DNA of 37,563 nt from an uncultured bacterium (GTDB lineage: Bacteria; Planctomycetota; Phycisphaerae; Phycisphaerales; SM1A02): the NCBI GenBank assembly GCA_903927725.1, contig CAIYOC010000189.1:1-37563 (forward strand), in the 5' to 3' direction. The notes below the pieces were generated by a model, which saw only the letters and a program-made list of their open reading frames with translations, did not search any database and was not told where the DNA came from. Below are positions 1,452 to 35,635 of the stretch, piece after piece (the stretch's first letter is position 1; every line of letters begins with the position of its first letter). The position numbers and the translations under genes were made by a program.

Positions 1452-2597
<1,146 letters not shown>

Positions 2598-18393: not shown

Positions 18394-20064
18394 TCAGGGA
18401 GCGCCGCGATCGAGGACGATTCGACGCCCGGGCTCGGTCGTGGCGACCTGTTCGAAGCCGTCCGGCCAACACACCGTGACCTTCACCGGCCCCTTCCCCG
18501 GCAGGCCCAGGTGGGCCTCTGGCGAGAACGTCGATTGGAACGGTCCGCCGCCAGCGAGCCAACGCCGCTGCACCAGGCCAGACTGTTCCGCCGTGATCAT
18601 CGCACCGACCGCACGGTGATTGCGCGACCCCGCACGCGTGTCGCGCAGGCTCACCACCAGCCAGTCACCCTTGACGTCATGATCGTTGCGCAGGACGCGC
18701 AGCGGACCGTTGAGTTCGCCGATCACCGCATCGACATCGCCGTCGCCATCCAAGTCCCCGAACACCGCCGTGCGATCACGATGCGGTGCGGCCAACCACG
18801 CAGCATCGCTGCGCAACGGCGAGAACCGCTTTCCCGTGCGCTCCAGCACCAATCGCGGCTGTGCGTACTCGGAGTCGAACGTGGCCTTGGTCGCGTTGGG
18901 ATAGACGTGCCCGTTGACCGTGAAGAGGTCCTCGTCGCCATCGTGGTCCAGGTCCGCAAAGACCGAGGCCCAACCGCACAGCGCCCGCGATGGCGCGCCG
19001 GTGCCGTACTGGCTCGAACGGTCATCCCAGAAGCCATCGGTGCGATTGAGGAAGAGCGTGTTGGTGTCGCTCGAGAAGACCGTGGCGTGCAGGTCCGGGC
19101 GGCCGTTGCCATCCACATCGCCCAGCGCGACGCCCATGGTGGCCTGCTCGATGCCTTCAAGGTTGGTGCTGCAGCCCATGCGGCGTGCGCGCTCCGCGAA
19201 CCTGAAGCCGCCTTGGTTGACGTGCAGGTGATTGCCGCTCGAGTCGTTGCCCACGAAGAGATCGACGAGCCCGTCGCCAGTGAAGTCGCACGCGATCACG
19301 TTGAGTCCGAACCCGGGCGCCACCGCACCGACGCCGCTCGCCTCCGTCACGTCGGTGAACCGGTCGCCATCGTTGCGCAGCACGACATCCTGCAGCGGCA
19401 TCAGGCCCTTGGGGCCATTGATGACGGGCTGCCCCTTGAACATCGCAGGCGCCAAAGGCTTGGCGGGGTCGTAGTCGACGTAGCGAGCGACGTAGAGATC
19501 AAGGTCGGAGTCCCCGTCGAGGTCCGCCAGCGCGCACCCCGTGCTCCAGCCTCCCGGCCCAGCCGCACCCCAGCGCTCGGTCGCGTCGATGAAACGCCCA
19601 CCGCCGCGGTTCAGCCAGAGGGCGTTGCGTCCGAAGCCCGCGATGAACAGGTCATCGCGACGGTCACCGTCGACATCTCCGGCTGCCACGCCGAACGACC
19701 AGCCGCGATGCATGAGACCGCTCTGCTGCGTGATGTCAGTGAACCGGAGGTCACCATCGTTGCGCCAGAGCCGGGCTCCCGGGCCCTGCATGGGGTCGGC
19801 GAGCGTGGCGCCATTGGGCATGAAGAGATCAAGGTCGCCATCGTCATCGACATCGATCAGCGCAAGCCCCCCACCCTTCACCTCAAGGATCTGCGAACTC
19901 GGCTGCGCTCCACTGGTCATGGTCGCCTGGATGCCCGTCGATGCCGTGACGTCCGTGAAGCCGATTGGCTTGGTGGTCGCCTCAGGCGCCGGAACCTGCG
20001 TTGTGGCCGCGGGAAGGAGCACATGGCTGGCCACGATCGCCAGGGCCACCAACGCTGCGGCCAT
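18394..20064 (-). CDS. FG-GAP/VCBS repeat protein with ASPIC/UnbV C-terminal domain (CRTAC1-like)
   Basis: ATG at 20064 overlapping the upstream TGA; N-terminal TM/signal; repeats such as GLALIDVDDDGDLDLFMPNG, GVAAGDVDGDRRDDLFIAG, ALADLDGDSDLDLYVARY; C-terminal HRAVGAMITAEQSGLVQRRWLAGGGPFQSTFSPEAHLGLPGKGPVKVTVCWPDG. Confidence 0.9.
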   Translation of the reverse strand: MAAALVALAIVASHVLLPAATTQVPAPEATTKPIGFTDVTASTGIQATMTSGAQPSSQILEVKGGGLALIDVDDDGDLDLFMPNGATLADPMQGPGARLWRNDGDLRFTDITQQSGLMHRGWSFGVAAGDVDGDRRDDLFIAGFGRNALWLNRGGGRFIDATERWGAAGPGGWSTGCALADLDGDSDLDLYVARYVDYDPAKPLAPAMFKGQPVINGPKGLMPLQDVVLRNDGDRFTDVTEASGVGAVAPGFGLNVIACDFTGDGLVDLFVGNDSSGNHLHVNQGGFRFAERARRMGCSTNLEGIEQATMGVALGDVDGNGRPDLHATVFSSDTNTLFLNRTDGFWDDRSSQYGTGAPSRALCGWASVFADLDHDGDEDLFTVNGHVYPNATKATFDSEYAQPRLVLERTGKRFSPLRSDAAWLAAPHRDRTAVFGDLDGDGDVDAVIGELNGPLRVLRNDHDVKGDWLVVSLRDTRAGSRNHRAVGAMITAEQSGLVQRRWLAGGGPFQSTFSPEAHLGLPGKGPVKVTVCWPDGFEQVATTEPGRRIVLDRGAP

Positions 20065-21014
20065 CACGGCTGCCCGCCCTTCGCCGGATCCACGATGCGC
20101 CCCATTCGTTCGCGCGCCTTGAGCTCTTCCACTCGCGCGCGATCGGCAGCCTGGGCATCGCCAAGCCGGTCGTAGCACCGTGCAACCTTGGCCCAGACTT
20201 CGTAGTGGTCGGGCCACGCCCGCAAGGCCCGCCGGTACAGGTCCACTGCATCCTGCGTGCGATCTGACCGCAGCGCGAGGTCACCCTGACGAGCCAGGAT
20301 CTTGCCGCGATCACGACTGCGCGATTCCTCCGCGCGCTCCGCTTCAGACAAGCACGCCATCGCGCGCTCGAGTGCGGCCGCGGCGGCGTCGACCTGGTCC
20401 TCATCGATCTCGACCAAGGCGATGCCGTACCACGAGTCGCCCGCCGTCGGCACTGTGGCCACATGCGACGTGAACGCCCCGCGTGCACCATCCAGATCGC
20501 CGGCGTAGTAACGAGCCCAACCCAGGAAGTGCGCCACATGCGCGTGCTCGGGGAACTGTTGCGCACGTTGGGTGGCCTCGATCGCCGCTGCACCCGCCAG
20601 CGCCTGCTCGAAGAACGGGAGGGCGTCGCTGTAACGCTTCTGCTTATGCAGGCTCAGACCGAGGACGAACGCCGCTCGGGGCTGATCGGGATGCGCCGCC
20701 AGCGCAGCGCGCGCCACGGGCTCAGCCTGCTCGGGATGGTTGCGAGCGATGAGCTGCAGCGCCACCCGGGCTTGGTCATCGCCCGGTGGCGGAGGCGGCA
20801 CGTCCGCGTTGGCGCGCTTGAGGGCTTCTGCCACCTCGGGAGGAAGTGACGGCTGATCGTCGGACGGTGACGTAAGCGTGGCCGGCGGAACTTGCGACGC
20901 TTCATGGTCGGCGGTGGCCGCCTGGTCGACTGGTTCCGGGGGGGTGGCCCCGCCCCGCCCCGGGTCGGAGCATCCGAGGACCATGAACACCACGGCAGGA
21001 ATCAGCACGCGCAT
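20064..21014 (-). CDS. TPR-repeat lipoprotein
   Basis: Lipobox FMVLGCSDP; TPR-like segments PRAAFVLGLSLHKQKRYSDALPFFEQAL, HFLGWARYYAGDLDGARGAFTSH, LARQGDLALRSDRTQDAVDLYRRALRAWPDHYEVWAKVARCYDRLGD. Confidence 0.85.
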   Translation of the reverse strand: MRVLIPAVVFMVLGCSDPGRGGATPPEPVDQAATADHEASQVPPATLTSPSDDQPSLPPEVAEALKRANADVPPPPPGDDQARVALQLIARNHPEQAEPVARAALAAHPDQPRAAFVLGLSLHKQKRYSDALPFFEQALAGAAAIEATQRAQQFPEHAHVAHFLGWARYYAGDLDGARGAFTSHVATVPTAGDSWYGIALVEIDEDQVDAAAAALERAMACLSEAERAEESRSRDRGKILARQGDLALRSDRTQDAVDLYRRALRAWPDHYEVWAKVARCYDRLGDAQAADRARVEELKARERMGRIVDPAKGGQP

Positions 21015-21132
21015 CGACCCATCCTACGGAGCAAAAATCCGTGGGGTCGACCCAGTTTTTCGCCCCAGCACCCCCCCGAGACTTGCCCCACCACCGAGCC
21101 GGGTGAATAGTCGTGAAGATTCTCGCGAATGT

Positions 21133-21175
21133 CCTTTCATACGTTATTGAAAGGCCCGGTCAGGGGATCTACAGT
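21133..21175 (+). promoter_or_regulatory. Candidate sigma-70 promoter with overlapping inverted-repeat operator
   Basis: TTGAAA (21147-21152) - 17 bp - TACAGT (21170-21175); inverted repeat CCTTTCA-N8-TGAAAGG (21133-21154) overlaps the -35 hexamer; downstream gene starts at 21242. Confidence 0.55.
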
Positions 21176-21241
21176 CTCCATGCCGGCTGAAGCCGTCAAC
21201 GTCGTTGTCCGAAACAGTCCATGCCAGAAGAGGAACGATTG

Positions 21242-22888
21242 ATGCGACGCATGATGCTGCCTGCTTTCACTTTGCTCGCCGTGGCGCCACTCGCGAGTGC
21301 GCAGGTGTCGATCCAACCCAAGGCGGGGTCGCCACTCGTTGGACTCACCCCTGCACAGCTGGAACTTTTCTGGGCAGGTCAAGAGGCTTACTCGACGCCA
21401 GTCACGCTCGAGATGGGCCTTGGCCCCATCATGAACAAGAGCAACTGCGTGAGCTGCCACACCAACCCCATCGGCGGCTGGGGCAGCATCTCGGTGAACC
21501 ACTTCGGCATGGACGACAAGGGCGAGTTCATGATGAGCCCCGGCGAGACGCAGTCCCTGCTGCAGACGCTTGCGCTCTCACCGCTCTGCGCCGAAGTCGT
21601 TCCGGAGGACGCCACGATCTTCGTCCAGCGCGTCACCAACTCATCGATGGCGTTCGGTCTCATCGAAGCGATTCCCGATGCTGCGATCGCGGCGAACGCC
21701 GATCCGACCGATGCCAACGGCGACGGCGTCTCCGGTCGCGTCCACTGGGTTCACCTGCTCGAGGATCCCACGGGTCCACTGCGTGCCGGCCGATTCGGGT
21801 GGAAGGCGCAGGTCGCCACCACACTGAGCTTCTCGGGTGACGCAGCCCGGAACGAGATGGGCCTCACCAACGATCTCGAGCCGTTCGAGAATGCCCCAAA
21901 CGGCAACGAAGCGATCCTCTCCGAGTGCGACTCGGCAGCCGATCCCGAAGACACGCCGGACCTCGAGGGATACCGCTTCATCGATCGCGTGACGCACTTC
22001 CAGCGCTACCTCGCCCAACCGCCGCAGACGCCGAAGAGCGGCATGACCGGCGAAACCGTCTTCAATGCCATCGGGTGCAACGCCTGCCACGTCCGCGACT
22101 GGACGACGTCCAACTCGCCCCTGCTCGAAGACGCCATCCGCAACAAGGCCATCAAGCCCTACAGCGACTTCCTGATCCACAACATGGGTGGCCTCGGGGA
22201 TGGCGTTCAGCAAGGCGACGCCGACGAGAGCGAGATGCGCACCCCGACCTTGTGGAACCTGCGCACCCGCGACCCGATGCTGCACAATGGCGCCGCGTCG
22301 GGGGGATCGTTCGCGACCCGCGTGGCCAAGGCCATCGAACTCCATGGTCCGTTCGGCGAGGGCGCTGCGAGCGCGGCCGCCTTCATGGCCCTCGGCGGCA
22401 CCCAGAAGGCCCAGCTCATCGCGTTCCTCGGCTCGCTCGGAAAGCTGGAGTTCGATCTCGAGCCGGACAACCAGGTCGATGTCTTCGACTTCATGCTGTT
22501 CCAATCGTGCTACGCGGTCGGTGCCGCCTCGCCCGACACCAATTGCGGCGTGGCCGACTTCAACCAGGATGGCAGCATCAACATGGTGGATGCCGATGCC
22601 TTCATGCAGGCCTATCAAGGTGCAGAGGGCACCGGCGACTGCGACAAGGACGGCACGGTCGACCTGATGGCGATCCTGCTTGGTGCACCTGACGCCGACG
22701 GAGACTTCATTCCTGACGACTGCGCAGGCTGCCAGGCTGACTTCGACGGCGATGGCCAGCGAAACGGTGTCGACCTCGGCATCCTGCTCGCAGGCTGGGG
22801 TACCGCCGCGGCTGATGCCGACGGCGATGGCATGACCAACGGTGTCGACCTCGGCATCCTGCTCGCAGGCTGGGGCGCCTGCAACTGA
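21242..22888 (+). CDS. Di-heme oxidoreductase (DHOR/DUF1111-like, putative thiol oxidoreductase or peroxidase) with Ca-binding/dockerin-like C-terminus
   Basis: Signal peptide MRRMMLPAFTLLAVAPLASAQ; two CxxCH motifs (NKSNCVSCHTNPIGGWG, IGCNACHVRDW); C-terminal ADFDGDGQRNGVDLGILLAGWGTAAADADGDGMTNGVDLGILLAGWGACN. Confidence 0.85.
   Translation: MRRMMLPAFTLLAVAPLASAQVSIQPKAGSPLVGLTPAQLELFWAGQEAYSTPVTLEMGLGPIMNKSNCVSCHTNPIGGWGSISVNHFGMDDKGEFMMSPGETQSLLQTLALSPLCAEVVPEDATIFVQRVTNSSMAFGLIEAIPDAAIAANADPTDANGDGVSGRVHWVHLLEDPTGPLRAGRFGWKAQVATTLSFSGDAARNEMGLTNDLEPFENAPNGNEAILSECDSAADPEDTPDLEGYRFIDRVTHFQRYLAQPPQTPKSGMTGETVFNAIGCNACHVRDWTTSNSPLLEDAIRNKAIKPYSDFLIHNMGGLGDGVQQGDADESEMRTPTLWNLRTRDPMLHNGAASGGSFATRVAKAIELHGPFGEGAASAAAFMALGGTQKAQLIAFLGSLGKLEFDLEPDNQVDVFDFMLFQSCYAVGAASPDTNCGVADFNQDGSINMVDADAFMQAYQGAEGTGDCDKDGTVDLMAILLGAPDADGDFIPDDCAGCQADFDGDGQRNGVDLGILLAGWGTAAADADGDGMTNGVDLGILLAGWGACN
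22763..22875 (+). repeat. Exact 38-bp direct repeat, 75-bp period, encoding duplicated dockerin-like motif
   Basis: AACGGTGTCGACCTCGGCATCCTGCTCGCAGGCTGGGG at 22763-22800 and 22838-22875. Confidence 0.92.
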
Positions 22889-22945
22889 CCCGGCAACACG
22901 ATCACCTCACCAAACTTTCCAAGACCGACCACTCCAGGAGACACT

Positions 22946-25438
22946 ATGCAGACCAGCCGCTTCGTCCTGACCCTTGCCGTGGCCATCACCGCCTCGGCCA
23001 ACGCCCAGTGGGCCACGTTCCAGAAGCAGACCTCGACGCGCATGGTCGCGAGCGCTTCGCTCATCGTGAACCCGAATCTTGAGCATGATTTCGCCAGCGG
23101 CGACTTCGACAAGGACGGCGACATTGATCTGGCGTGCATGCGCAAGTTCCCCGGCTCTGTGCAGGGCGGTTTCCGCGACATCCTCTTCATGAACGAGAGC
23201 GGCGTGCTGGTCGACCGCACCGTCGAGTTCGGCTCGGCAGCCGACGCTGCCGGCTCGCAGGGCATGCTGGACCCCGCCAATGACCGTGACGTCGAGGCGT
23301 TCGATGTGGACAACGACGGCTGGCTCGATCTGATCACCGTGACCACCATGAGCGACCCGGTCAGCGCCATGCTCGGACAGCCGCGCGTGTACCGCAACCT
23401 CGGCAACAACGCGCAAGGCCAGTGGCAGGGCTTCCGCTTCGAGGACAACCGCATTCCCACCATGGTCAGCAAGACCGGCGTGGCGGCGAACCCGCGCGCC
23501 TGCGATGCCGCGGTGGCTGACTACACCGGCGACGGCTATGTCGACATCTACTTCGTCGATTACGACACGCCCGAGACGGTCGGACAGACCATTTGCTACG
23601 ACCTGAACTCCGACGGCGACACGGTCGATGCCGGCGAATGCCAGCAGTCCCCTGCTGAAGACGCCGCGAAGGACTACGACAACCGACTGCTCATCAACCA
23701 GGGCGCCGCGAACCCCGGCTTCTTCACCGATTCGGGAACGACGCGCATGACGGCTGCGCAGCTCGTGAGCGAGTTCGGCAACATGTGCGAGCCCGGCGAC
23801 ATGAACTTGGACGGCCGCCCTGACGTGGTGCGCGTGAACACCCTGACCGCTGGCCAGGACGTGGCGGTGTACTACCCCAACGCGGGCGGCACCTCCTTCA
23901 CCAAGGATGTCGTGTACCCCGGCCTCGCCCCCTACGGCCTCGGCGTCGATGACCTGAACGGCGACGGCAAGCTCGACTTCATCGTCGCCGACGACGGACA
24001 GGACCGCTACTGCCTCAACGCCGGCAACGGTACCGATGGCTTGGCCAACTTCACGACCTACGTGATCTCCGGCAGCCCGTCGGAGTTCGGCAACACGATT
24101 TCGATCGCCGACCTCAACAACGACGGCCGCAAGGACGTCATCGTGACCGACGTCGACAGCGACCTTGGGCCGTTCTGCCCGACCAGTGGGCGTACGACCA
24201 AGTTCTATCGCAACACCGGTTCCGACAGCGCCCTGCTGGTCAACGAGGCCGGCACCGTGCCTTCGGCCGAGCAGACCGGCTGGACCGACGCAGCCCTCAT
24301 CGACATCAATGGCGACGGCTGGCGCGACATCGTGTCGGGCACCTGCGGCGGGATCAACGTGTACATGAACACGCCCCCGATCAACATGAGCTGGTCGATC
24401 GTGGGCGGCGCACCCGCCACGGTCCCCCCGGGACAAGCGACGGCGCTCACCGCCAACGCCTCGATCGTTGGTGGCGGCTCGATCGTCTCCGGCAGCGCGA
24501 AGCTCTTCACCCGCATCAACAATGGTGCGTGGTCGGATTCGGCGCTTCCGAGTGTTTCGTCCACGCAGTTCCTGGTGAACCTGCCCGCGCTCGACTGCGG
24601 CCAGAGCTTGGATTGGTACATCTCGGCGCAGCTCTCGAACACCGGCACCGCGACCTGGACGCTGCCCAGCGGCGGTGCCGCGGGTCCGTTCGCGCTCGAT
24701 CCGGTCTCGGGGACCGAGCTGGTCTACTCGAGCGAGTTCGAAAACGGCACCGAGGGCTGGACGGTCGAGAACACCTCCGTCACGTTTGGCGCGTGGGAAC
24801 TCGGCGACCCGATCGGCAGCAACAGCGGCGCCACCCCCGTGCAGCCTGAACTCGACAACTCGGCGACCGGCGTGAACTGCTGGTTCACCGGCCAGGGCAC
24901 TGCCGGCGGCACGGCAGGTGCGGGCGACCTTGACGGTGGCCCCACTGTGCTCGTCTCGCCGGTCTTCACGATTGGCGGGCAGGACGTGAACATCTCCTAC
25001 GCCCGTTGGTTCGCCTGCGTCGAGCCGACCGCCGCCGAAGTGGACTCGTTGACCGTCGACGTTCGAGTCGATGGTGGCGCGTGGCGCAACCTCGAGACCT
25101 TCACCTCGAACACCGGGTTCTGGTCGGTCCGCGCCGGCAACCTCAGCTCGGCGTTGGCGCCGGGCAACACCCTCCAGATCCGCTTTGTCGCTCGCGACAA
25201 CCCGAACAACTCCACCACCGATGCGGCCATCGACTCGATCCGCATCGAGCGCGTGGTGTGCACGCAGGCCCCCGCCTGCGCGGGCGACCTCGACGACAAC
25301 GGTGCGGTCGACGGCGCCGACCTTGGCACGCTGCTGGGCCAGTGGGGCGGCGCGGGCTCGGCCGACCTTGATGGCAACGGCACGGTCGACGGTGCTGACC
25401 TTGGCGTGATGCTCGGCGCATGGGGCGCTTGCCCCTGA
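22946..25438 (+). CDS. Secreted FG-GAP/VCBS repeat protein with C-terminal beta-sandwich region and dockerin-like tail
   Basis: Signal peptide MQTSRFVLTLAVAITASANAQ; FG-GAP repeats (DFASGDFDKDGDIDLACM, GDMNLDGRPDVVRVN, IADLNNDGRKDVIVTD); tail CAGDLDDNGAVDGADLGTLLGQWGGAGSADLDGNGTVDGADLGVMLGAWGACP; AGGAGA upstream of ATG. Confidence 0.9.
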   Translation: MQTSRFVLTLAVAITASANAQWATFQKQTSTRMVASASLIVNPNLEHDFASGDFDKDGDIDLACMRKFPGSVQGGFRDILFMNESGVLVDRTVEFGSAADAAGSQGMLDPANDRDVEAFDVDNDGWLDLITVTTMSDPVSAMLGQPRVYRNLGNNAQGQWQGFRFEDNRIPTMVSKTGVAANPRACDAAVADYTGDGYVDIYFVDYDTPETVGQTICYDLNSDGDTVDAGECQQSPAEDAAKDYDNRLLINQGAANPGFFTDSGTTRMTAAQLVSEFGNMCEPGDMNLDGRPDVVRVNTLTAGQDVAVYYPNAGGTSFTKDVVYPGLAPYGLGVDDLNGDGKLDFIVADDGQDRYCLNAGNGTDGLANFTTYVISGSPSEFGNTISIADLNNDGRKDVIVTDVDSDLGPFCPTSGRTTKFYRNTGSDSALLVNEAGTVPSAEQTGWTDAALIDINGDGWRDIVSGTCGGINVYMNTPPINMSWSIVGGAPATVPPGQATALTANASIVGGGSIVSGSAKLFTRINNGAWSDSALPSVSSTQFLVNLPALDCGQSLDWYISAQLSNTGTATWTLPSGGAAGPFALDPVSGTELVYSSEFENGTEGWTVENTSVTFGAWELGDPIGSNSGATPVQPELDNSATGVNCWFTGQGTAGGTAGAGDLDGGPTVLVSPVFTIGGQDVNISYARWFACVEPTAAEVDSLTVDVRVDGGAWRNLETFTSNTGFWSVRAGNLSSALAPGNTLQIRFVARDNPNNSTTDAAIDSIRIERVVCTQAPACAGDLDDNGAVDGADLGTLLGQWGGAGSADLDGNGTVDGADLGVMLGAWGACP

Positions 25439-25464
25439 GCGCGAAGCAATCGTGAAGAAACCTG

Positions 25465-25494
25465 CGGCCCCGGCCTCGTGCCGGGGCCGTTTTC
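25465..25494 (+). terminator. Rho-independent terminator between convergent genes
   Basis: 10-bp perfect stem CGGCCCCGGC-CTCGT-GCCGGGGCCG followed by TTTTC. Confidence 0.9.
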
Positions 25495-25503
25495 ATTGGT
25501 GCG

Positions 25504-27387
25504 TCAACGATCCGATGCGCGGATCACGATCGACCTGCCCGTGCCGTCCACGACCACACGCGACTCGGAGGCCAAGCGGCTTCCAGCGGGCCACGTCACA
25601 GTGACGACGGTCTTGGTCTGCCCTTCCGGAAGACCGATCGTGAACGCCGGGTCGCAGGCGCTCAGGTAGCTGCGGGCGCCGCTGACGATGGTCGCTGCCG
25701 TCGTCGACGGCTCCGCCGCGAAGGGCGCCACGGTCACCAGTGCACCGATCCCCTGCGGATTGCCGGGCGGGCCCTCGAGCACGATGCGCAGCCATCGACC
25801 GTGCGCGGGGAGGTCGTTGCGCAGGAGCATCGGTGCACCGCCAGCCTGCGTGAGGGCCAGGTCGAGATCGCCGTCGCCATCGATGTCCGCAGTCGCCAGA
25901 CCGCGACCGACGACCGGTCGAGCCAGATCGCCGATCTTGCCGGCGGGCAGCTCGCGCAAGAGCGGGCTCGGTGCACCTCGCCCTGCATTCAGGAAGAGCT
26001 GTCCCCGCTGCCGCCAGGCCTGGCTGGGTTGCACCTTCGCGATGCGTTCCTCGATGTGACCGTTGGCCTGGACGAGATCGGCGTCGCCGTCGAGGTCCAT
26101 GTCCGCCATGACCAGGCCGAACGTCAGGAACGCACGTGACGCCGGGCCAAGTCCCTCGATGATGGCGTCATCGCTGAAGGACATCGTGGTACCTCGCTCG
26201 ACGTAGAGCGAGCTCATCTCGTTGGCGAAGTTGCCGATGGCGATCGCCCACTGGCGCGGGCGCAGCCACGCCGTATCGATGCCCATGGCGCCGGTCGCAC
26301 TGCCATTGCGATCGAACGCGATGCCGCTGGGTGCGCCGACCTCGACGAAACTCGCACGGCCTGGCGATCCCTCGTTGCGGAAGAGGAAGTTCGCGACGGT
26401 GTCGTTGGCGATGGCCACGTCCACGCGGCCATCACCGTTCCAGTCGCCAAGCACCACGCCGAGCGCCTTGCCCACGGGCTTGCCGGTGCTGGCGTTGGCG
26501 ACGGCAAACCCGCTCTCGGCCGTTGCATCGACCAGGCCCGCCGCGCCATCGTTGCGCAGATAGGTCAGGTCGACGCCCTCGAACCCGGTGGGCGAGCCGT
26601 ACGCGCGCCCGATGCCGGTGAGCCGGTAGTCGACAGCCAGATCGATCTCGCGCGACCAGCGCACATAGTTGCAGACGATGACGTCGAGGTCGCCGTCCTG
26701 ATCGCCATCGACCATGGCCGCGCTCGTGCCCCAACGAGAGGCTCGGGGAACGTTCAGACGGTCCGTGGCATCCTCGAAGCGTGGTCCGCCGCCGCGCTCG
26801 GTACGGTTCAGATAGACGGCGTTGCGTCCGACGGCGGTGACGAAGAGATCGGTGCGGCCATCGCCATCCAGATCGCCGGTCGCGATACCCATGCCGTAGC
26901 GCGGACCCTCGAGGCCGCTGCCGTTGGTCGCCTCGCGGAACTGCCCGCGTCCGTCGTTGGTCCACAGCCGCACGCTGTCATGGTCCGGCTCAGGCTCGCT
27001 GGAGAACGGCTCGCCCTGCCAGCGGCAACCATCGATCAGCACCAGGTCCTGGTCGCCATCGCCGTCGACATCGAGGAAACCGACGCCGCCGCCCATGGTC
27101 TCGGGCAGCAGGAACTCGCCGGATGCCCCGGTGGTGTGGATGAAGTCGATGCCGGCTGCCTTGGCCACGTCGGTGAAGGGCACCGGGGCGGGCGGCTCAT
27201 CGATCACCCGGGGCACGGCCGGCGTGACCGGCGTGGGATCAGGCTCGCGTGCGGGCGCGGGCTTGCGAAGGAGCAACCACGCCCCCGTGCCGACTGCACC
27301 GAGCGCAACGATCGTCACAATCGACCATCGTGCAGCGCGGCCAATGCTGCCGTCGTCATGCTGTGGCTCAGGTGCGTGGTCGTGCAT
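25504..27387 (-). CDS. Membrane-anchored FG-GAP/VCBS repeat protein with ASPIC/UnbV C-terminal domain (CRTAC1-like)
   Basis: N-terminal TM (WSIVTIVALGAVGTGAWLLL); PFTDVAKAAGIDFIHTTGASGEFLLPETMGGGVGFLDVDGDGDQDLVLIDG; further repeats; C-terminal GIGALVTVAPFAAEPSTTAATIVSGARSYLSACDPAFTIGLPEGQTKTVVTVTWPAG. Confidence 0.9.
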   Translation of the reverse strand: MHDHAPEPQHDDGSIGRAARWSIVTIVALGAVGTGAWLLLRKPAPAREPDPTPVTPAVPRVIDEPPAPVPFTDVAKAAGIDFIHTTGASGEFLLPETMGGGVGFLDVDGDGDQDLVLIDGCRWQGEPFSSEPEPDHDSVRLWTNDGRGQFREATNGSGLEGPRYGMGIATGDLDGDGRTDLFVTAVGRNAVYLNRTERGGGPRFEDATDRLNVPRASRWGTSAAMVDGDQDGDLDVIVCNYVRWSREIDLAVDYRLTGIGRAYGSPTGFEGVDLTYLRNDGAAGLVDATAESGFAVANASTGKPVGKALGVVLGDWNGDGRVDVAIANDTVANFLFRNEGSPGRASFVEVGAPSGIAFDRNGSATGAMGIDTAWLRPRQWAIAIGNFANEMSSLYVERGTTMSFSDDAIIEGLGPASRAFLTFGLVMADMDLDGDADLVQANGHIEERIAKVQPSQAWRQRGQLFLNAGRGAPSPLLRELPAGKIGDLARPVVGRGLATADIDGDGDLDLALTQAGGAPMLLRNDLPAHGRWLRIVLEGPPGNPQGIGALVTVAPFAAEPSTTAATIVSGARSYLSACDPAFTIGLPEGQTKTVVTVTWPAGSRLASESRVVVDGTGRSIVIRASDR

Positions 27388-27422
27388 CGAAGGCGGAGCC
27401 TACGCGCGGCCCGGTTCGTCAA

Positions 27423-30395
27423 TCACTCGCTGGAGCCAGATCCATGCAACGAACGAACGGCGGCCACGGAGGCCTGGGCGCCCACGCCGGTCAGCTCCCG
27501 CACGGCAGCAGGCATCGACGGCCCGGGCGATGCCTGGGGCCTGGTCGGCGCAGGAGCGTCGATCGAGGCCTCGAAGCGCCCTTGCCGTTGCAGGTCGTAG
27601 ATCGCGATCGGCTCCGCAGCATGATTCGCGGCCGGGTAGCGCGCGCGCGCCGCAGCGATCGCGGAATCACGGGCGTTGTCATCGAGCTTGTAGCGGGCGT
27701 GCTCAGCTCGTGCACGCTCTGCGAGGGTGGCATCCGCCTGCTCGGTGGCGACTTGTGAGAGAACGTACCAAGCGCTCGCATTCTCGGGATCGAGTGAAAG
27801 GGCTGCGTCGAGATTGGCCCGCGAGCCCGACAGCAGGTCACGAGCCTTCGATGGATCGATCGACTGGATCGCACGGGACCACTCGTACTGGACCTGCGCC
27901 AGGTCGATGAGCAGGCGGTCATCATGGCTGAAGTCGAAACCCCGCTCGATCGCCAGCGGGAAGGCACTGGACTTGACCGATGACATGTTGCGCACAGCAG
28001 CCTCGAAGTTGCCGTTCTGTCGATCGACCTGCGCACTGAACCATGCGATCGACCATGGATAGGCAGGCGAGGTGGCCTGCCCGGCGCGACCGAGCGCTGC
28101 GACGGCATCATCGAGCCGACCTTCCTTCAGGTAGGTCCTGGCCAGGCCGAGTGCGCCCTCGCCGCGACCGAGTTCCTCGACCTTGCGGAACGCTAGCTCG
28201 GCACCGCGCAGGTCACCCTTCTGGCTGCCGCGGTTGCCTTGGCGGAAGAGACCGATCGCGTAGTCGTACCAACGCTGCCACTCGGGGAAAGCGGCGGGCG
28301 CGCCCGTCGCTGGCGGCGCGGCGGCTGGGGCCGGTGCGGATGCAATCGCTGGGGTCTGTGCGGCCGTGGCCAGCGGCAGCGTGACCGAGTCCGTCGCCAG
28401 CGTCAGCACGGGCACGGTGTTGGTTCCGCTGCCCGGGTAGACGTAGTGCATGTAGGTCGTGTCGAACTTGCGGTAGCGCAGCGCGACCTCGATGATGACC
28501 GGTTCAGTCAGGTCCGCGGGCAGCGTCAGGCCGAAGTGCGTCACGTCACCGGCGCCGGGAGGGACCTGGTTGTTGTAGAGCGGGACGAAGATGTCCTGCG
28601 GATTGCGGCGGTCGATCCGGTTGCCCGCCCGGTCGAGCATGAACACGTTGAAGAACTTGCTCCAAGGGTCGACCGCCCGTTCGCTGTCGACGCCGCCACT
28701 GCGGCCAATCACGCGATCGCCCGAGCGCGCCGTCACGTCCAGCCAGACCTCGTTGCTGTCGGCAGTGCCCTGCGTGAACTCATGGCCGAGCTTGAGCGTG
28801 CGCGTGACGACCTCGACGAGCAGCGGCTCGCCCGGCGTGACCGCAGGCAGCATGGGATCGAGCGGCGCCTCGAGCGGGGCATCGACGTCGCTGCCGCGGC
28901 GGATCCCAAAGACATCCACGCGCATGGTTCCCTGCAGGAACGCCTCGCACTCGGCCTGCACCGTTTCGGCACCCATGAGGCCAGAAAGCAGCGGCGTTGC
29001 CGGGTTGGCGGTCGCGAAGCCGTGGTCCAGCGTCGCAAGCCGGCCGTCGCGGACCTTGGACCCGAAGTCATCGCTCGGGCGCGCCTGCATGTGGCAGCCG
29101 TTGCAGTTCGACTCGGCCTTGGCCGGGTAGTACCAGCTCTCGATGCCGTGGCCGCTCACGCCAGAGAGGCGAAACGAGTCGTAGTGATTCTGCCCGCGAA
29201 GCCAGCGGTAGTCATTCACGGCCTGGGGCAGGTTGACCTTGTGGCAGCTGCCGCAGAACTCGGCACTTCGGTGCACCTCGGGCTTCAGGAACGTCTGCTT
29301 GTGGAAGGCCGGCTTGGCCTTGACCAGCTGGCGGTTCACCCACTTGAGGAAGGGGTTCTGGCTGAAGGTGAACGGGTAGTGCTGGGATTCCTCGATCGTG
29401 TAGTCGGCATTGCCCCGCGGGGAGTTCACGGCCACGACCGAGTGGCACGACGTGCATGTGATGCTGGCCGCGCCGAGCGGATCCTTGGACACGTCGTAAT
29501 CGGGATCGTCGAAGCGGGCATGCTCGAAGGCGCCCGAGAAGAACGGAACGGGGTCGTGGCACCCGGCGCAGAAGCGGGCATCCTGCACCGAACCCTCGCG
29601 GGCGTGGGCCTCGCGCCGCGTTTCGCGCACGCTGAAGGCGTAGAGCGGATTGTTGAAGCTGCTCGCCGCGTGCACCGAGTGCGCCCACGAGTTGTAGGCA
29701 TCCTCATGGCACTCAAGGCAGTACTCGTTCATCATCAGGCTCTCGGCCGGAATGAACCCCCCGCTCGCCGTCCGGGCGAGGCTGGGCTCGAAGTAGTCGG
29801 CGTTGCGCGGACCGATCGTGGACCAGGGCCTTGCGTCCGAACCATGCAGGGCCACCATCGCTGCCGCGAACACAGCCGCCACCGCACCCCAGCGCACACC
29901 TACCTGCCAGCGAATGCGGCGGCCGGCCAGTCGGTGCAGCACGTAGAGCCAGATCGCCGCGACCGGCAGCACCACGTGCAGCCAGTAGACGATGCGGCGA
30001 GAATCGGGGCTGCGCAGACCGACATCGCGGCCGCCGATCTCGACATTGGTCAGGAGCGCGCCCGTCACGAGCACGCCGACCGAGGCCCAGAGCAGCACCC
30101 AGCCCGCACGCACGGCGCTGCGATTGGGTCGATCGTGGGTGTTGCGCAAGTGCACCGCGGCGAACACGATGAAGGGCAGCGTGAAGAGCAGGCCCAGCAG
30201 CAAGTGCCCGCCGAACATCCACTGGTAGAACTGGTTCTGGAGCGACTGGCCAGAGGCCCACTCGGCCACCGTGATGCCCGAGAGGTACACGCTGTTGACG
30301 ACCAGGATCGCGAAGAGCCCCAGCACGATTGAAAGCACAGGCGCCAGGCGTGGTGGCACGGGGTGCTTGAACGGCTTGCGTGCGGGCTCGGCCAT
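27423..30395 (-). CDS. Membrane-anchored multiheme (5 CxxCH) cytochrome c with C-terminal TPR region
   Basis: ATG at 30395; about 5 predicted TM helices with paired His (GGHLLLGLLFTLPFIVFAAVHL; LHVVLPVAAIWLYVLHRL); heme motifs CLECH, CAGCH, CTSCH, CGSCH, CNGCH; TPR-like repeats in the last third. Confidence 0.88.
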   Translation of the reverse strand: MAEPARKPFKHPVPPRLAPVLSIVLGLFAILVVNSVYLSGITVAEWASGQSLQNQFYQWMFGGHLLLGLLFTLPFIVFAAVHLRNTHDRPNRSAVRAGWVLLWASVGVLVTGALLTNVEIGGRDVGLRSPDSRRIVYWLHVVLPVAAIWLYVLHRLAGRRIRWQVGVRWGAVAAVFAAAMVALHGSDARPWSTIGPRNADYFEPSLARTASGGFIPAESLMMNEYCLECHEDAYNSWAHSVHAASSFNNPLYAFSVRETRREAHAREGSVQDARFCAGCHDPVPFFSGAFEHARFDDPDYDVSKDPLGAASITCTSCHSVVAVNSPRGNADYTIEESQHYPFTFSQNPFLKWVNRQLVKAKPAFHKQTFLKPEVHRSAEFCGSCHKVNLPQAVNDYRWLRGQNHYDSFRLSGVSGHGIESWYYPAKAESNCNGCHMQARPSDDFGSKVRDGRLATLDHGFATANPATPLLSGLMGAETVQAECEAFLQGTMRVDVFGIRRGSDVDAPLEAPLDPMLPAVTPGEPLLVEVVTRTLKLGHEFTQGTADSNEVWLDVTARSGDRVIGRSGGVDSERAVDPWSKFFNVFMLDRAGNRIDRRNPQDIFVPLYNNQVPPGAGDVTHFGLTLPADLTEPVIIEVALRYRKFDTTYMHYVYPGSGTNTVPVLTLATDSVTLPLATAAQTPAIASAPAPAAAPPATGAPAAFPEWQRWYDYAIGLFRQGNRGSQKGDLRGAELAFRKVEELGRGEGALGLARTYLKEGRLDDAVAALGRAGQATSPAYPWSIAWFSAQVDRQNGNFEAAVRNMSSVKSSAFPLAIERGFDFSHDDRLLIDLAQVQYEWSRAIQSIDPSKARDLLSGSRANLDAALSLDPENASAWYVLSQVATEQADATLAERARAEHARYKLDDNARDSAIAAARARYPAANHAAEPIAIYDLQRQGRFEASIDAPAPTRPQASPGPSMPAAVRELTGVGAQASVAAVRSLHGSGSSE

Positions 30396-30541
30396 GCCGC
30401 AAAGTCTAGGTGCTCGCTGGCCCATCGACGCATGACGGGGACCGCCACAGGCGAGAAACCCCCCCCGCTGCCGATCCGTCATCAAGCGCCCCGGCGATCG
30501 AGTCCCAGACGACGCAGCGATCGGTCTTCAGCGATCGGTCT

Positions 30542-33500
30542 TCAGCGACCGCCCTGCAGGCGCGTGTTGAAGCGCTCGTGCAGCACCTGCGCGCCGGGCG
30601 ACCGAGCCTCGCCCCGCATGGGCTGCGGATCGAGCGTCTCGCCGTCCTTGGTGAAGAGGTCCATGTCCTTGCACCAGCCATCGAGTTCGAGCACCCAATG
30701 GCGGGTCAGGCCGGTGGATTCCGGCGGCGCTTCAAAGGACAGCTGCAGTTCCTCGCCGCCGGCGAAGATTGCGCAGGCATCGTCCTGCGTGGCCGTGAGC
30801 GGCAAGCAGTCGCCAAGCTGCGTGTACTCGCCCACCTGCACACGGCAGTCCCAGAGCGGCACCGCGCGGGCATCGTCGTAGTGCGGTAGGAACTGGTGAC
30901 CGGTCGAGCGCAGCGCGTAGCCGCGCCGAGCGATGGCTGCCGAGCGGGGCGCACAGGCGATGGGTTCGATCGGCGCCGGCTCGGCCTCGATCACGGCAAG
31001 CCGATCCCAGTAGATCTGGTGATTGGTCGAGAGCCGCAGCGCGGTGGTTCCGGTGGGCAGCGGAGGCAACGGCAGCATCGCGCGGCGTGGCATCCCCGCG
31101 GGGTAGCCGAACTGCTCAGCCACCATGGTCCACGTGCCGTCAGCACCGCGTGCTTCGAGCGACGGTGCGCGGAAGGCCGCACCTGCCTGCCAGGCGGCGA
31201 ACATCGTCTGGCAGTACGGGTACTCGATCCATCCATCCATGACGAGCCAGGCGTTCGAGAGCTGCGAAAGATCGCGGCCGAACTCGAGCTCGACCATATG
31301 GTCTGAGGTCAATCGACCGATGTGGCGATGATCGAGCGGCCCCGGATCGAGCGCGATGCGATCGGCGCGAAGCACCGCATCCAGCGGCCCCTTCGCTGGA
31401 GAAGCATCGATCGAGGCCGAAGCGTGATGCCCCGGTCCACGCGCGTGAAGCGAGGTCGTGACGGCCGTTGGCAGATGTTCCGTGCGCCAGAAGATCGGTG
31501 CGCCCGTGGGCGCAGGGCCGTTGATCCCCATGCGCTCATCGACCGCCATGGACCACCCATCAGGAAGGTCGTAGGCCATGAGCCGCGCGCCGTCGATCCA
31601 GCATGCTTCTTCCATGGGCTCAGCGAGCTTGAGCCGGTAGAGCCCGCGATCGGCGACGAGCGTGCCGGGTGACAGCAGCACATGCTCCCACGGACGCGGC
31701 GGTGCGTACACACCGGGCTCGACGAGGTAACCGAGCCCACCGACGCCAAGGCAGTCCGTGACGAAAGTGTGCTCGCGACCATTCCACGCGAAGATCACGG
31801 GGCAGCTGCTGATCTGACGCTGCGTCTCGACGAGCGTGCGCCGCGAGCCGGCCATGAGCCAGAGTTCGCTCTGCGTCACGCCGTCGCTCCAGTCGATCGC
31901 GAGAGCATCGACATGGGGCGCCGGACCAAGGCCGATCGAGACTGGCTGCAGGCTCTGGCCGGGACCGGAGCCGATACGCCAGGTCGTGGTGCTCGACCAC
32001 TCACTGCCGATCCGCGCCGTGAGCCGGGTGCCGATGCCGCTTGCGTTCGAGCGCATGCTCTGCGCAGGGTCGATGCGGCCGCGGGGATCGACAGCCGCGA
32101 ATCCGCCGCGACCAGCGCCCGGACCGAAGACCACCGGCGGGCCTTCGGGCTGCGTGGCCAGCATGCTTGGCCCCTGCTCCGGATGCAGGTTCACGACCGC
32201 CCACGCCGTGGCAGGCTTGGGTGCACGCTCGATCCAGACCTGCTGACCGGATGGATCCATCCCCACGAGTGCACTGCCCTCGCCGCACAGCACCTCATGG
32301 TGCAGGTCGCCGTTGAGGTCAGCCAGTGTGAACAGGCTGCTTGATCCTGCGGTGGCCCCGGCATCGATCGAGCCTTCGGCCACAACATTCCACGGGCCCG
32401 ACCAACTCGCACCGCGCTCGGGATTCGTCGGGGCAAGCACCAGGAGCGATCCACCCATCTGGGGTGCTGCGGTGTTCATCACCGGCGCGGCCGCCGATGC
32501 ATTGGGAGCCTGCCAGAGCATCACCAGCGGCGTGCCGTCGATCGAGCGCTCGGTGCACGCGATCCACCGCGCGGAGCGGGACTCGATCGCGCTGAACCGG
32601 GGCTGGCGCGTCCACGACCAGAGGCGGTCGTTGCACCACACGGTGCACCCTTCCGGCCCAGCGAGCAGCAGATCGACATCACGGTCGCCGTCGACGTCGC
32701 CGAGTGCGATCTGCGTCGCGGGCTTGGCGGCATCACCCTGAAGGCGATCGGTGATCTCTCGCATGGGGCCGCCGTCGATCCCCGCGAAGAGCCGTAGCGA
32801 TCCAGCGCCGTCGAGGAAGGCCAGATCAAGGTCCCCGTCGTGATCAAGGTCAGCCATCACGCCATCGCGTGCAGCCGGGATGACGGAGAGCCCGAGCGAC
32901 TCCGTGCGGTCCTGCCACCCATCGGCGGACTGCATCCACGCACGCACGCCAGCAGAGCCCAGAGACACCAGATCCACGCGGCCATCGCTGTCGAGATCGC
33001 CAGCCAGCACGCCGAGCACGCTTGGTGCCGCAGCCAACGGGTGCGCACCATCAAGCACAAAGCCCCTCGGCGTGGACTTGAGGATCGCGTTGGGGCGATC
33101 CCCTTCGAGTGCACCCGGGATCACCAGGTCGAGCGAGCCATCACCATCAAGATCGACCGCGCAGACGCTGGCGCCGCCGGATGCGCTCCACGACAGGCTC
33201 GCACCGGGAGCGAGGGTGATGGCGACCGGTGCTGCGAGCATCGGCCCGCGCGCCGGCTCAGGCATGGGGGACGGCGGCACGATGCACATGCCCAAGCGCC
33301 CCATGCGGGTGTACTTGAACTCGGCAAGCGTGCTGCGCGGGTTCATCGCGAGGCGCTCGAAGGTCTGCATCGCCAAATCGGCGGCCGCGTCGTCGCCCGT
33401 GCGCGCAGCCATGCGCTGGATGCCCAGCTGCGCGCTGCGCAGGAATGGGTCGAGTTCCGCAGCCCGGCGGTACCACGTGAGTGCCTCCTGATCGGCACCG

Positions 33501-34015
33501 GTGAGCTCAAGGCACTGACCCACGTAGAAGCTCGCATGGGGATCGCCGGGCACGGCATCCGCGCAGCGGCGAAAGTGCACGAGCGCCTGCTCCGGACGGC
33601 CAAGGTAGAGCTCGCACAGGCCGATGCCGTACGTTGGCGTGCCCCACGTCTCGACGCCGGGTGCGCTGTACGAGCGAAGGATCGAACGGAACTCCTCGAT
33701 CGCGCGCTCCTGCGCGCCCTCGACGGACTGGTTCATCAGCGCAATCGCGGCGTTGGTCAGGCCCCATCGATTGCCGTGGACCTGCGCGCTGCCCTGGAAG
33801 TGCAGCCGTGCGGCCTCGAAGTCGAACTGCCCCATCAAGCCGATGCCGTGGTTGAGTGCACCGATCTGGACCGCGCTCAGTGCAGGTTCATCAGACGCGG
33901 GCTTCGAGCAACCACTCGTTGCCGCAGCGATCAGCAGCACTGCGCCAAGCGCACGACCGGCGCGGATCACGGCGCGCCGTGCTGGGGACTCGATGGCTCC
34001 CCCCGCCCCGCTCAC
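30542..34015 (-). CDS. Large lipoprotein: TPR region, FG-GAP/VCBS repeats, ASPIC/UnbV-like region, about 420-aa uncharacterised C-terminal region
   Basis: GTG start with lipobox-like LLIAAATSGCSKP; TPR-like ALNHGIGLMGQFDFEAARLHFQGSAQVHGNRWGLTNAAIALMNQ...; FG-GAP repeats (AVDLDGDGSLDLVIPG, AGDLDSDGRVDLVSLG, MADLDHDGDLDLAFLDG); long unassigned C-terminus. Confidence 0.85.
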   Translation of the reverse strand: MSGAGGAIESPARRAVIRAGRALGAVLLIAAATSGCSKPASDEPALSAVQIGALNHGIGLMGQFDFEAARLHFQGSAQVHGNRWGLTNAAIALMNQSVEGAQERAIEEFRSILRSYSAPGVETWGTPTYGIGLCELYLGRPEQALVHFRRCADAVPGDPHASFYVGQCLELTGADQEALTWYRRAAELDPFLRSAQLGIQRMAARTGDDAAADLAMQTFERLAMNPRSTLAEFKYTRMGRLGMCIVPPSPMPEPARGPMLAAPVAITLAPGASLSWSASGGASVCAVDLDGDGSLDLVIPGALEGDRPNAILKSTPRGFVLDGAHPLAAAPSVLGVLAGDLDSDGRVDLVSLGSAGVRAWMQSADGWQDRTESLGLSVIPAARDGVMADLDHDGDLDLAFLDGAGSLRLFAGIDGGPMREITDRLQGDAAKPATQIALGDVDGDRDVDLLLAGPEGCTVWCNDRLWSWTRQPRFSAIESRSARWIACTERSIDGTPLVMLWQAPNASAAAPVMNTAAPQMGGSLLVLAPTNPERGASWSGPWNVVAEGSIDAGATAGSSSLFTLADLNGDLHHEVLCGEGSALVGMDPSGQQVWIERAPKPATAWAVVNLHPEQGPSMLATQPEGPPVVFGPGAGRGGFAAVDPRGRIDPAQSMRSNASGIGTRLTARIGSEWSSTTTWRIGSGPGQSLQPVSIGLGPAPHVDALAIDWSDGVTQSELWLMAGSRRTLVETQRQISSCPVIFAWNGREHTFVTDCLGVGGLGYLVEPGVYAPPRPWEHVLLSPGTLVADRGLYRLKLAEPMEEACWIDGARLMAYDLPDGWSMAVDERMGINGPAPTGAPIFWRTEHLPTAVTTSLHARGPGHHASASIDASPAKGPLDAVLRADRIALDPGPLDHRHIGRLTSDHMVELEFGRDLSQLSNAWLVMDGWIEYPYCQTMFAAWQAGAAFRAPSLEARGADGTWTMVAEQFGYPAGMPRRAMLPLPPLPTGTTALRLSTNHQIYWDRLAVIEAEPAPIEPIACAPRSAAIARRGYALRSTGHQFLPHYDDARAVPLWDCRVQVGEYTQLGDCLPLTATQDDACAIFAGGEELQLSFEAPPESTGLTRHWVLELDGWCKDMDLFTKDGETLDPQPMRGEARSPGAQVLHERFNTRLQGGR

Positions 34016-34992
34016 GGCAGTTCCCGCTTGGCGTGGGCGATGCGCTCATTGGTCGACTCGATGGATATCGCGCCGGTGCCCGAGGGCGCCAAGTACGGCC
34101 GCTCCATGTACGGGTGCGCGCTCGTACGCAGGTGCGCCCGCATGTCATGGCCGCGCGAGCGTGCGCGCGCGGCACGCAGCGCATCAAGATCAATCGGCGC
34201 AACCACGACCTTCTCGCCGGGACCGGGGTCCGCCTGCGCGAGCACGCGCCCCTCGAAGTCGACGACCATGGATCCGCCCGGCCACGAGAACGGCGGATAG
34301 TCGCGGAAGCTCGCACCTTGGTTCGCCGCGACGACGTACGCCGTGTTCTCGGCGGCGCGGGCGCGGTTGAAGAGCGTCCACCAGTCCATGGGTTGCGTGG
34401 CACCCCACGGATCCATGTAGGCGCTCACGCGGACCAGGACCTCGGCGCCGTTGAAGGCGAGCTGACGAATCGTCTCGGGGAAGAGCCAGTCGTAGCAGAT
34501 CGCGCAGCCGATCCGGCCGATCGGCGTGTCTGCCACCGGGAACATGGGCAGGTCGTAGTCAGCCAAGTCGTGCGGGCTCGCGTGCACTTCCCACGGGATC
34601 CACGGGTTCACCTTGCGATAGGTCGCCAGGATCCCATCAGGACCGATGAGCATGGTCGTGTTGAAGACCGCGTCCGGCCATCGAGGATGCCGCTCGAGGA
34701 ACGTGCCCGTCTGGATCCAGCAGCCGAGCTTCTTGCAGACGCGCGCGTAGGCATCGGTGTGCTCGTTCGGCAGTTCGACCGCCAAGTGCTGCTGCAGCTC
34801 CTTGACCGTCAGGTAGCACGGCGGCGTGTGCGCGAACTCGGGGAACGCTATCAAGCGAACATCGAAGAACGGTTCGTAGCCGCCGACGGTCGACTCGGCC
34901 ATGGCGCACATGCGTGCCACGCGATCGGCGATGGCGCTGCGGTCCTTCGGCGTCTCGAACGCAGTCTGGATGGCCGCAGCGTGGTACCTCAT
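34012..34992 (-). CDS. Carbon-nitrogen hydrolase (nitrilase superfamily)
   Basis: Glu-Lys-Cys triad candidates: LIAFPEFAH, ILATYRKVNPW, IGCAICYDWLFPETIRQLAFNGAEVLVRVSAY. Confidence 0.92.
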   Translation of the reverse strand: MRYHAAAIQTAFETPKDRSAIADRVARMCAMAESTVGGYEPFFDVRLIAFPEFAHTPPCYLTVKELQQHLAVELPNEHTDAYARVCKKLGCWIQTGTFLERHPRWPDAVFNTTMLIGPDGILATYRKVNPWIPWEVHASPHDLADYDLPMFPVADTPIGRIGCAICYDWLFPETIRQLAFNGAEVLVRVSAYMDPWGATQPMDWWTLFNRARAAENTAYVVAANQGASFRDYPPFSWPGGSMVVDFEGRVLAQADPGPGEKVVVAPIDLDALRAARARSRGHDMRAHLRTSAHPYMERPYLAPSGTGAISIESTNERIAHAKRELP

Positions 34993-35198
34993 GCGCGCTC
35001 CTCGATCCAGAGCTGCTGGATCGTCTCGAGGATGCGCTCGTTGCTGGGGTGACCGGGCTGCTCGGCGAAACCCGGCAGTTCCGTCACAAGGCTCCGCAGG
35101 CGCGGAAAGCTCACCGACGTGGGATCGACATCAGGGTGGCGGTCGGCCAGCTCCTCGGCGATGCGCTGAACATCGAGCCAGTGGAAACCACCGGACAT
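34989..35198 (-). CDS. iscX: IscX-like Fe-S assembly protein (69 aa)
   Basis: MSGGFHWLDVQRIAEELADRHPDVDPTSVSFPRLRSLVTELPGFAEQPGHPSNERILETIQQLWIEERA matches the IscX pattern (W.D...I...L...P..DP..V.F..L...V..L..F...P..SNE.ILE.I...W). Confidence 0.88.
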   Translation of the reverse strand: MSGGFHWLDVQRIAEELADRHPDVDPTSVSFPRLRSLVTELPGFAEQPGHPSNERILETIQQLWIEERA

Positions 35199-35596
35199 CA
35201 GTGCGGCACTTCCTTGACGGCGTTGCGGTTCCAGCTCGGCACGCGGATGACGATGCGGCCGGCCTTCTTGATCTCGCACTGGCAGGCAAGGCGGCTGTTG
35301 CGCTGGATGCCGGGGGCTTCCTCGACACGGTCGTCCTCGGCTTCGGTCGATTCGCTCAGGCAGTCCATGCCCTCCTCCACGTAGATGTGGCACGTGCTGC
35401 AGGCGCAGACGCCGCCGCAGGCGTGCTCGATGTTGATGTGCTGATCGAGCGCGAGCTCAAGCAGGCTCTCACCGGTGGCGCCGGTCAGGTTCCACTCCTT
35501 CTGCTCGGTGCCGGTGGCCCCTTCCGGGTCCTCGAGGTGGATGGTGACGGGCACGTTGCGCTCGCCGCGCGGGCCTTCTGATCGCTTGAAGCTCAT
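35198..35596 (-). CDS. fdx: 2Fe-2S ferredoxin (ISC-type)
   Basis: 132 aa; ESLLELALDQHINIEHACGGVCACSTCHIYVEEG...RNSRLACQCEIKKAGRIVIRVP with adrenodoxin-type Cys pattern. Confidence 0.93.
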   Translation of the reverse strand: MSFKRSEGPRGERNVPVTIHLEDPEGATGTEQKEWNLTGATGESLLELALDQHINIEHACGGVCACSTCHIYVEEGMDCLSESTEAEDDRVEEAPGIQRNSRLACQCEIKKAGRIVIRVPSWNRNAVKEVPH

Positions 35597-35635
35597 GGGG
35601 CGTGAAGTGTAGCCCTGCGCCCGTACCATGGCGGG

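Follow-up and report, generated by a model that had tools for sequence, protein, structure and literature searches.

The 37,563-nucleotide window analyzed here, a contig of an uncultured planctomycete of the order Phycisphaerales (SM1A02; CAIYOC010000189.1), carries a membrane multihaem cytochrome (27423-30395, minus strand) directly upstream of a CRTAC1-like FG-GAP/UnbV protein (25504-27387, minus strand). We think it probable, on balance, that these two genes form the core of an electron-transfer unit, composed of the membrane cytochrome and the CRTAC1-like propeller, with tetratricopeptide repeat (TPR) modules as scaffolds. This reading draws on computed pairing across phyla, co-occurrence, haem motifs, candidate ligands, fold matches and TPR shuffling. 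The unit is widespread and apparently undescribed, and is not a chance pile-up of repeat proteins. A sequence-only reading of the window had treated the cytochrome as merely one of three architectures in which TPR and UnbV modules recur; it turned out instead to be the constant element of the loci.

Pairing of the cytochrome with an UnbV protein

A scan of genome contigs returned at least 572 relatives of the cytochrome, from which 80 loci, selected via the cytochrome, were taken to study pairing. Most loci with enough contig possess a downstream UnbV gene on the same strand, its product mostly 42–50% identical to 25504-27387. By open reading frame (ORF) calls, UnbV is the next gene in 55 of 70 loci, and the commonest spacing is −4, a four-base overlap. 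The pair is found in Planctomycetota, Verrucomicrobiota, Acidobacteriota and other phyla. Single-chain fusions of cytochrome and UnbV were not found among the ORFs of loci L055–L194, and a long open frame at L062 that was considered as such a fusion was rejected.

Because these loci had been selected via the cytochrome, a second test of the pairing covered whole planctomycete genomes. The partner is present in all 34 planctomycete genomes with a close cytochrome (above 390 bits in 33, and split across contigs in one), and the two genes are adjacent in 32 of them, being separated in G083 and G144. It was detected in none of 18 planctomycete genomes without the cytochrome (E 1e-30), a non-random sample in which most genomes belong to the family, order or class of the window; several of these genomes have other UnbV genes. 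The single-contig genomes G106, G127, G235, G288 and G222 have the two genes side by side. The distance matrices of the paired genes are congruent, with a Mantel r of 0.90.

The membrane multihaem cytochrome

The cytochrome is 990 residues long and starts at ATG 30395. Exactly five CxxCH motifs were present in all 20 family members first checked. Conservation was then assessed over 75 sequences from Planctomycetota, Verrucomicrobiota, Acidobacteriota, Gemmatimonadota, Latescibacterota and others, with phyla taken from record titles. The titles of the metagenome-assembled genomes (MAGs) at L081, L111, L121 and L154 (Singulisphaera, Chitinophaga, Akkermansia and Kuenenia) look unreliable for their bins. 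Across the set, the five haem motifs and four further histidines, H64, H82, H140 and H154, are invariant. The candidate distal ligands of the c haems are similarly constrained: H242, H365, H458 and H538 are invariant, and position 375 is His in 71 sequences and Met in 4. With candidate distal ligands on all five c haems, the apparent six-coordination favors electron transfer over catalysis.

The predicted structure (predicted local distance difference test, pLDDT, 88) has five membrane helices, at residues 18-48, 55-86, 92-116, 130-156 and 163-186. With the haem domain outside, H64 and H140 lie in the model close to the periplasmic end of helices 2 and 4, and H82 and H154 close to the cytoplasmic end of these same helices. 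This pattern of histidines and helices suggests that the membrane domain is probably a di-haem b cytochrome. For residues 216-673 the fold search gave the pentahaem cytochrome c552 of Thermochromatium tepidum (5ze8), with a Z of 15.6 and a root-mean-square deviation of 3.6 over 340 of its 385 residues, while the corresponding sequence match is weak (E 3e-4). Farther along, the model and its fold matches indicate a TPR solenoid at about residues 705-920; no TPR family reaches the Pfam cut-off in 27423-30395. The fold matches of the cytochrome as a whole were dominated by TPR structures. The earlier claim that TPR and multihaem modules share one chain is borne out here by the five CxxCH motifs and the modeled solenoid.

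TPR modules at distant cytochrome loci

Cytochromes of only 30–39% identity still have an adjacent UnbV gene, in 20 of 25 testable cases read by eye and in 5 of 5 further cases. These distant relatives split into two groups, one with five CxxCH motifs and a TPR tail, the other with four CxxCH motifs and no TPR. All full-length pentahaem proteins examined carry TPR. Members of the tetrahaem group are mostly about 700–800 residues long, and one of its loci (L215) has five CxxCH motifs. At the tetrahaem loci, Pfam-confirmed TPR appears in other positions: behind UnbV in one chain (L196, L204, L205 and probably L223) or on an adjacent gene (L206/L234, L227 and L229). At L226 it lies in a further gene that joins cytochrome and TPR, and at L215 in a gene upstream that joins Fe-S and TPR. 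TPR on UnbV or an adjacent gene was counted at 7 of 13 tetrahaem loci under a strict definition (p = 0.01) and at 9 of 13 under a wide one, which admits a nearby gene and the TPR-Fe-S gene and used a looser neighborhood than the control (p = 0.0006), compared with 5 of 34 ordinary UnbV loci. The 13 loci had been found via the haem domain, not via TPR, and were picked by eye for enough flank. At L196, L204, L205, L206 and L216–L230, the tetrahaem cytochrome is without TPR and an UnbV match follows wherever the contig reaches. This tetrahaem membrane subfamily deserves a family description of its own.

The 34 ordinary loci are other UnbV loci of relatives, left from 40 after six were dropped for lack of a recognizable UnbV at the center. 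They showed a TPR neighbor in 5 of 60 cases against 2 of 115 in controls (p = 0.047), and TPR was fused to UnbV in one of the 34. The general pairing of TPR with UnbV outside cytochrome loci is weak. The sequence-only suggestion that the two modules work together is partly supported, mainly for cytochrome loci, and is marginal as a general rule; the displacement of TPR onto UnbV or a neighboring gene is the best evidence for it, restricted to those loci.

The cluster and its gene order

The source MAG measures 2.5 Mb in 283 contigs. Peptidoglycan, lipopolysaccharide-export and other housekeeping genes occupy the left side of the window, and the FG-GAP/TPR cluster the right. Pfam searches confirmed the earlier description of the cluster, recovering within about 16 kb three FG-GAP/UnbV proteins, one further FG-GAP protein and three TPR-bearing proteins, with the weak UnbV of one fused protein established by structure. 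A six-frame search found four UnbV matches in the whole genome, three of them inside the cluster; under random placement of four matches, three would fall within 15.6 kb with P ~5e-4. The features are as follows.

34012-34992, minus strand: carbon-nitrogen hydrolase of the nitrilase superfamily, which opens the conserved operon (Pfam CN_hydrolase, 134.8 bits)
30542-34015, minus strand: fused protein with lipobox Cys36, TPR at 45-226, CRTAC1-like FG-GAP propeller plus UnbV at 256-732 and a beta-rich region at 733-1157 (Pfam, model, fold match)
27423-30395, minus strand: membrane multihaem cytochrome with five predicted transmembrane helices, five CxxCH motifs, an immunoglobulin (Ig)-like beta region and a C-terminal TPR (conservation over 75 sequences, model, fold match)
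25504-27387, minus strand: CRTAC1-like FG-GAP/UnbV protein (UNBV_B) with a single N-terminal hydrophobic segment (Pfam; match to CRTAC1, 9etn, E 5e-15; adjacency; own clade)
25443-25503, no strand assigned: GC-rich hairpin with a T run behind it, lying between the convergent genes, likely a terminator (sequence read by eye)
22946-25438, plus strand: FG-GAP protein that lacks UnbV and ends in a dockerin-like segment, convergent to the operon (Pfam, translation)
21221-22888, plus strand: di-haem oxidoreductase (DHOR) with a dockerin and two CxxCH motifs, its gene preceding the one for the FG-GAP dockerin protein (Pfam DHOR, 128.2 bits; Dockerin_1)
20064-21014, minus strand: TPR protein (TPR_A) with a lipobox-like Cys at its N-terminus, translationally coupled to UNBV_A (Pfam TPR_16, 70.4 bits)
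18394-20067, minus strand: second FG-GAP/UnbV protein (UNBV_A), conserved partner of the TPR lipoprotein gene (Pfam, clade)

Pfam FG-GAP_3 and UnbV_ASPIC both match 18394-20217 (38.5 bits), 25504-27387 (30.3 bits) and the fused protein, all on the minus strand, while 22946-25438 (plus strand) matches FG-GAP_3 without UnbV. Pfam also gives a strong TPR match in 20064-21014 and a clear one in 30542-34015. In the fused protein UnbV is weak by sequence, scoring 19.0 bits in the whole protein (cut-off 23.4) and 24.4 bits in the six-frame search. Its identity was settled because the predicted structure (pLDDT 78.7) superposes on CRTAC1 over residues 256-732, with a Z of 31.9 across 436 residues. The same model also matches MamA with a Z of about 20, and C36 is conserved in at least 90% of 21 homologs. 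The C-terminal region 733-1157 (window 30542-31819) is beta-rich and well conserved, and had no match of its own in whole-protein searches; a PHROGs search with the fused protein likewise gave no match.

Several of these genes overlap. The hydrolase stop and the fused-gene start share GTGA, and the TPR_A stop overlaps the UNBV_A start in TGATG/GTGA. The UNBV_A frame is open to 20217, and its probable start is ATG 20067 or GTG 20070, overlapping the TPR_A stop codon.

Gene order was compared in 20 relatives, 19 from the same family and one from another family of the order. The order hydrolase, fused TPR/FG-GAP/UnbV, multihaem-TPR, UnbV recurs in most loci long enough to cover it. The hydrolase adjoins the fused gene in most family loci, and this nitrilase-superfamily gene is a tightly coupled first operon gene in the family. 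The DHOR and FG-GAP dockerin genes are a conserved pair in the family and are often convergent to the operon in the same relatives; the TPR_A/UNBV_A pair beside DHOR is conserved within the genus and in certain others. Both the DHOR and the FG-GAP protein have dockerin-like ends, which suggests export to the cell surface; the NCBIfam GC-type dockerin match of the DHOR protein is below cut-off.

Farther out lie a 2Fe-2S ferredoxin-like gene (35198-35560, minus strand) and a radical SAM gene (35636-36805, plus strand); a 513-residue frame at 35198-36739 (minus strand) looks mostly like an antisense artefact. At the other end of the window, 1452-2597 (minus strand) encodes a radical SAM protein with DUF3463, which we take to be the make-up of the hopanoid enzyme HpnH.

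Origin of the UnbV copies

A tree of 185 UnbV proteins puts the window's three copies in separate clades, 3.0–4.7 changes per site apart. All 35 fused proteins group together (support 0.96), as do all eight UNBV_A-type proteins (support 1.0), each of which has the same TPR gene upstream. The cytochrome partners form a separate group of 58 plus eight more rows, all eight in cytochrome loci, with a low branch support of 0.55. UNBV_A and UNBV_B are 32% identical. Since the three proteins belong to separate clades, they are not local duplicates. Local duplication, which the sequence-only reading had offered for checking by phylogeny, was rejected as the origin of the cluster on the strength of three old UnbV clades and a gene order conserved across the family.

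These results also bear on the idea of a surface-adhesion cluster, in which FG-GAP and TPR proteins were gathered by local duplication and the cytochrome is incidental. Propeller folds do resemble those of integrins and lectins, but the separate clades, the family-wide order and the pairing with the cytochrome across phyla already disfavor this explanation, and we give it hardly any credence.

Proposed mechanism and alternatives

In the electron-transfer unit that we favor, the cytochrome would sit in the inner membrane and hold two b haems, one between H64 and H140 on the periplasmic side and one between H82 and H154 on the cytoplasmic side. Electrons would pass via these haems between the quinone pool and the periplasmic domain of five c haems. 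The UnbV propeller, anchored at its N-terminus, would dock on the cytochrome, where it would recruit or orient a redox partner. The TPR modules, both the cytochrome tail and those of the accessory lipoproteins (the fused protein and the TPR_A/UNBV_A pair), may act as scaffolds that gather further components. The neighboring di-haem DHOR is a possible local acceptor in the window's family only; it is not a universal neighbor. In this scheme we infer the binding of b haem and the direction of electron flow, as well as the final acceptor and a physical contact of the cytochrome with UnbV.

Some observations weigh against this scheme. Pairing and congruence demonstrate co-inheritance, not contact; congruent distances are expected for any stable operon. 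The pentahaem-TPR cytochromes of three loci in the planctomycete family f64 (L210, L211 and L212) have no adjacent UnbV gene, and thus not every branch requires the partner. Finally, sequence searches did not identify the membrane domain: PDB matches were insignificant and Pfam matches scattered and weak.

Tight gene pairing would look identical if the UnbV and TPR proteins were periplasmic chaperones that mature or stabilize the cytochrome and stand outside its electron transfer. TPR proteins act in cytochrome c biogenesis, as in CcmH/CcmI, and some neighbors of UnbV genes match TPR_CcmH_CycH. However, the partner tracks particular cytochrome subfamilies, and in the pentahaem cytochromes TPR is covalently part of the chain; we regard such an assembly role as rather unlikely. 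The haem domain, with its PHC/ExtKL/c552 fold (PMC11976967), raises the further prospect of an extracellular conduit that carries electrons to the cell surface, like Geobacter CbcL with ExtKL-type partners. ExtKL is indeed the best NCBIfam model for the cytochrome, and the dockerin-bearing DHOR and FG-GAP neighbors suggest export. The ExtKL score of 34.9 bits is nevertheless far under the cut-off of 250, and no porin or outer-membrane cytochrome was seen at the locus, the rest of the genome not having been searched for them. A conduit of this kind strikes us as distinctly unlikely. The presence of the DHOR and FG-GAP dockerin genes beside the operon in many family members could also mean that the cytochrome feeds the di-haem DHOR for peroxide reduction or related chemistry, but these genes are absent beside the pair in most loci of other phyla, which makes this a very improbable account of the unit.

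Relation to known systems

T. tepidum c552 has been related to ExtKL and to pentahaem cytochromes of cable bacteria (PMC11976967). As in the window's cytochrome, its five c haems are followed by an Ig-like beta domain, a plan shared by the PHC/ExtKL group. The c552 chain lacks a comparable membrane domain, whereas here five helices with four invariant histidines precede the haems, TPR follows them, and there is an UnbV partner.

Geobacter CbcL and ImcH likewise combine membrane helices with a periplasmic multihaem c domain (PMC6295460; PMC9129911), and in CbcL a di-haem b membrane domain is joined to nine c haems (PMC9129911; PMC6295460). The CbcL/MtoC/MtrH group is defined by an N-terminal multihaem domain followed by mostly six transmembrane helices with three conserved histidines (PMC6295460). 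CbcL itself has nine N-terminal c haems, six C-terminal helices and three conserved histidines. The present protein has the reverse order, with an N-terminal membrane part of five helices and four invariant histidines followed by five c haems and TPR, and so does not share that layout. CbcL is best regarded as an analog of this cytochrome rather than as a demonstrated relative.

CRTAC1 (9etn) and bacterial CRTAC1/ASPIC-UnbV proteins have the same FG-GAP propeller and UnbV domain, while the members in this cluster are tied to a membrane cytochrome. A CRTAC1-family gene also stands beside cytochrome genes in hydrazine-synthase-like clusters (PMC12758564), where the neighbors are homologs of the alpha and beta-gamma subunits of hydrazine synthase. 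In the open-licence literature we found no description of the cytochrome/UnbV pair (subscription papers were outside the search), no paper on TPR joined to multihaem modules in planctomycetes or verrucomicrobia, and no tested bacterial function for CRTAC1/ASPIC-UnbV proteins.

Implications

For annotation, the TPR, UnbV and multihaem genes of this cluster should be treated as one unit. In the cytochrome, a single chain combines what is probably a di-haem b domain with a pentahaem domain of the c552 type and a C-terminal TPR. Tentatively, and with a good deal less confidence than we have in the two-gene unit itself, we suggest that the fused b/c-type cytochrome and its CRTAC1-like propeller may represent a widespread, undescribed class of quinone-linked respiratory or electron-export complexes in Planctomycetota, Verrucomicrobiota, Acidobacteriota and others, in which bacterial CRTAC1 proteins would be the subunits that dock on multihaem cytochromes. 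Planctomycetes and related phyla commonly carry CRTAC1/ASPIC-UnbV proteins. Now that one UnbV clade is seen to follow a particular membrane cytochrome, that clade has a partner and a role that can be tested. Should the cytochrome prove to be a quinone-linked carrier, a sizeable gap in the respiratory chain of common environmental bacteria would be filled.

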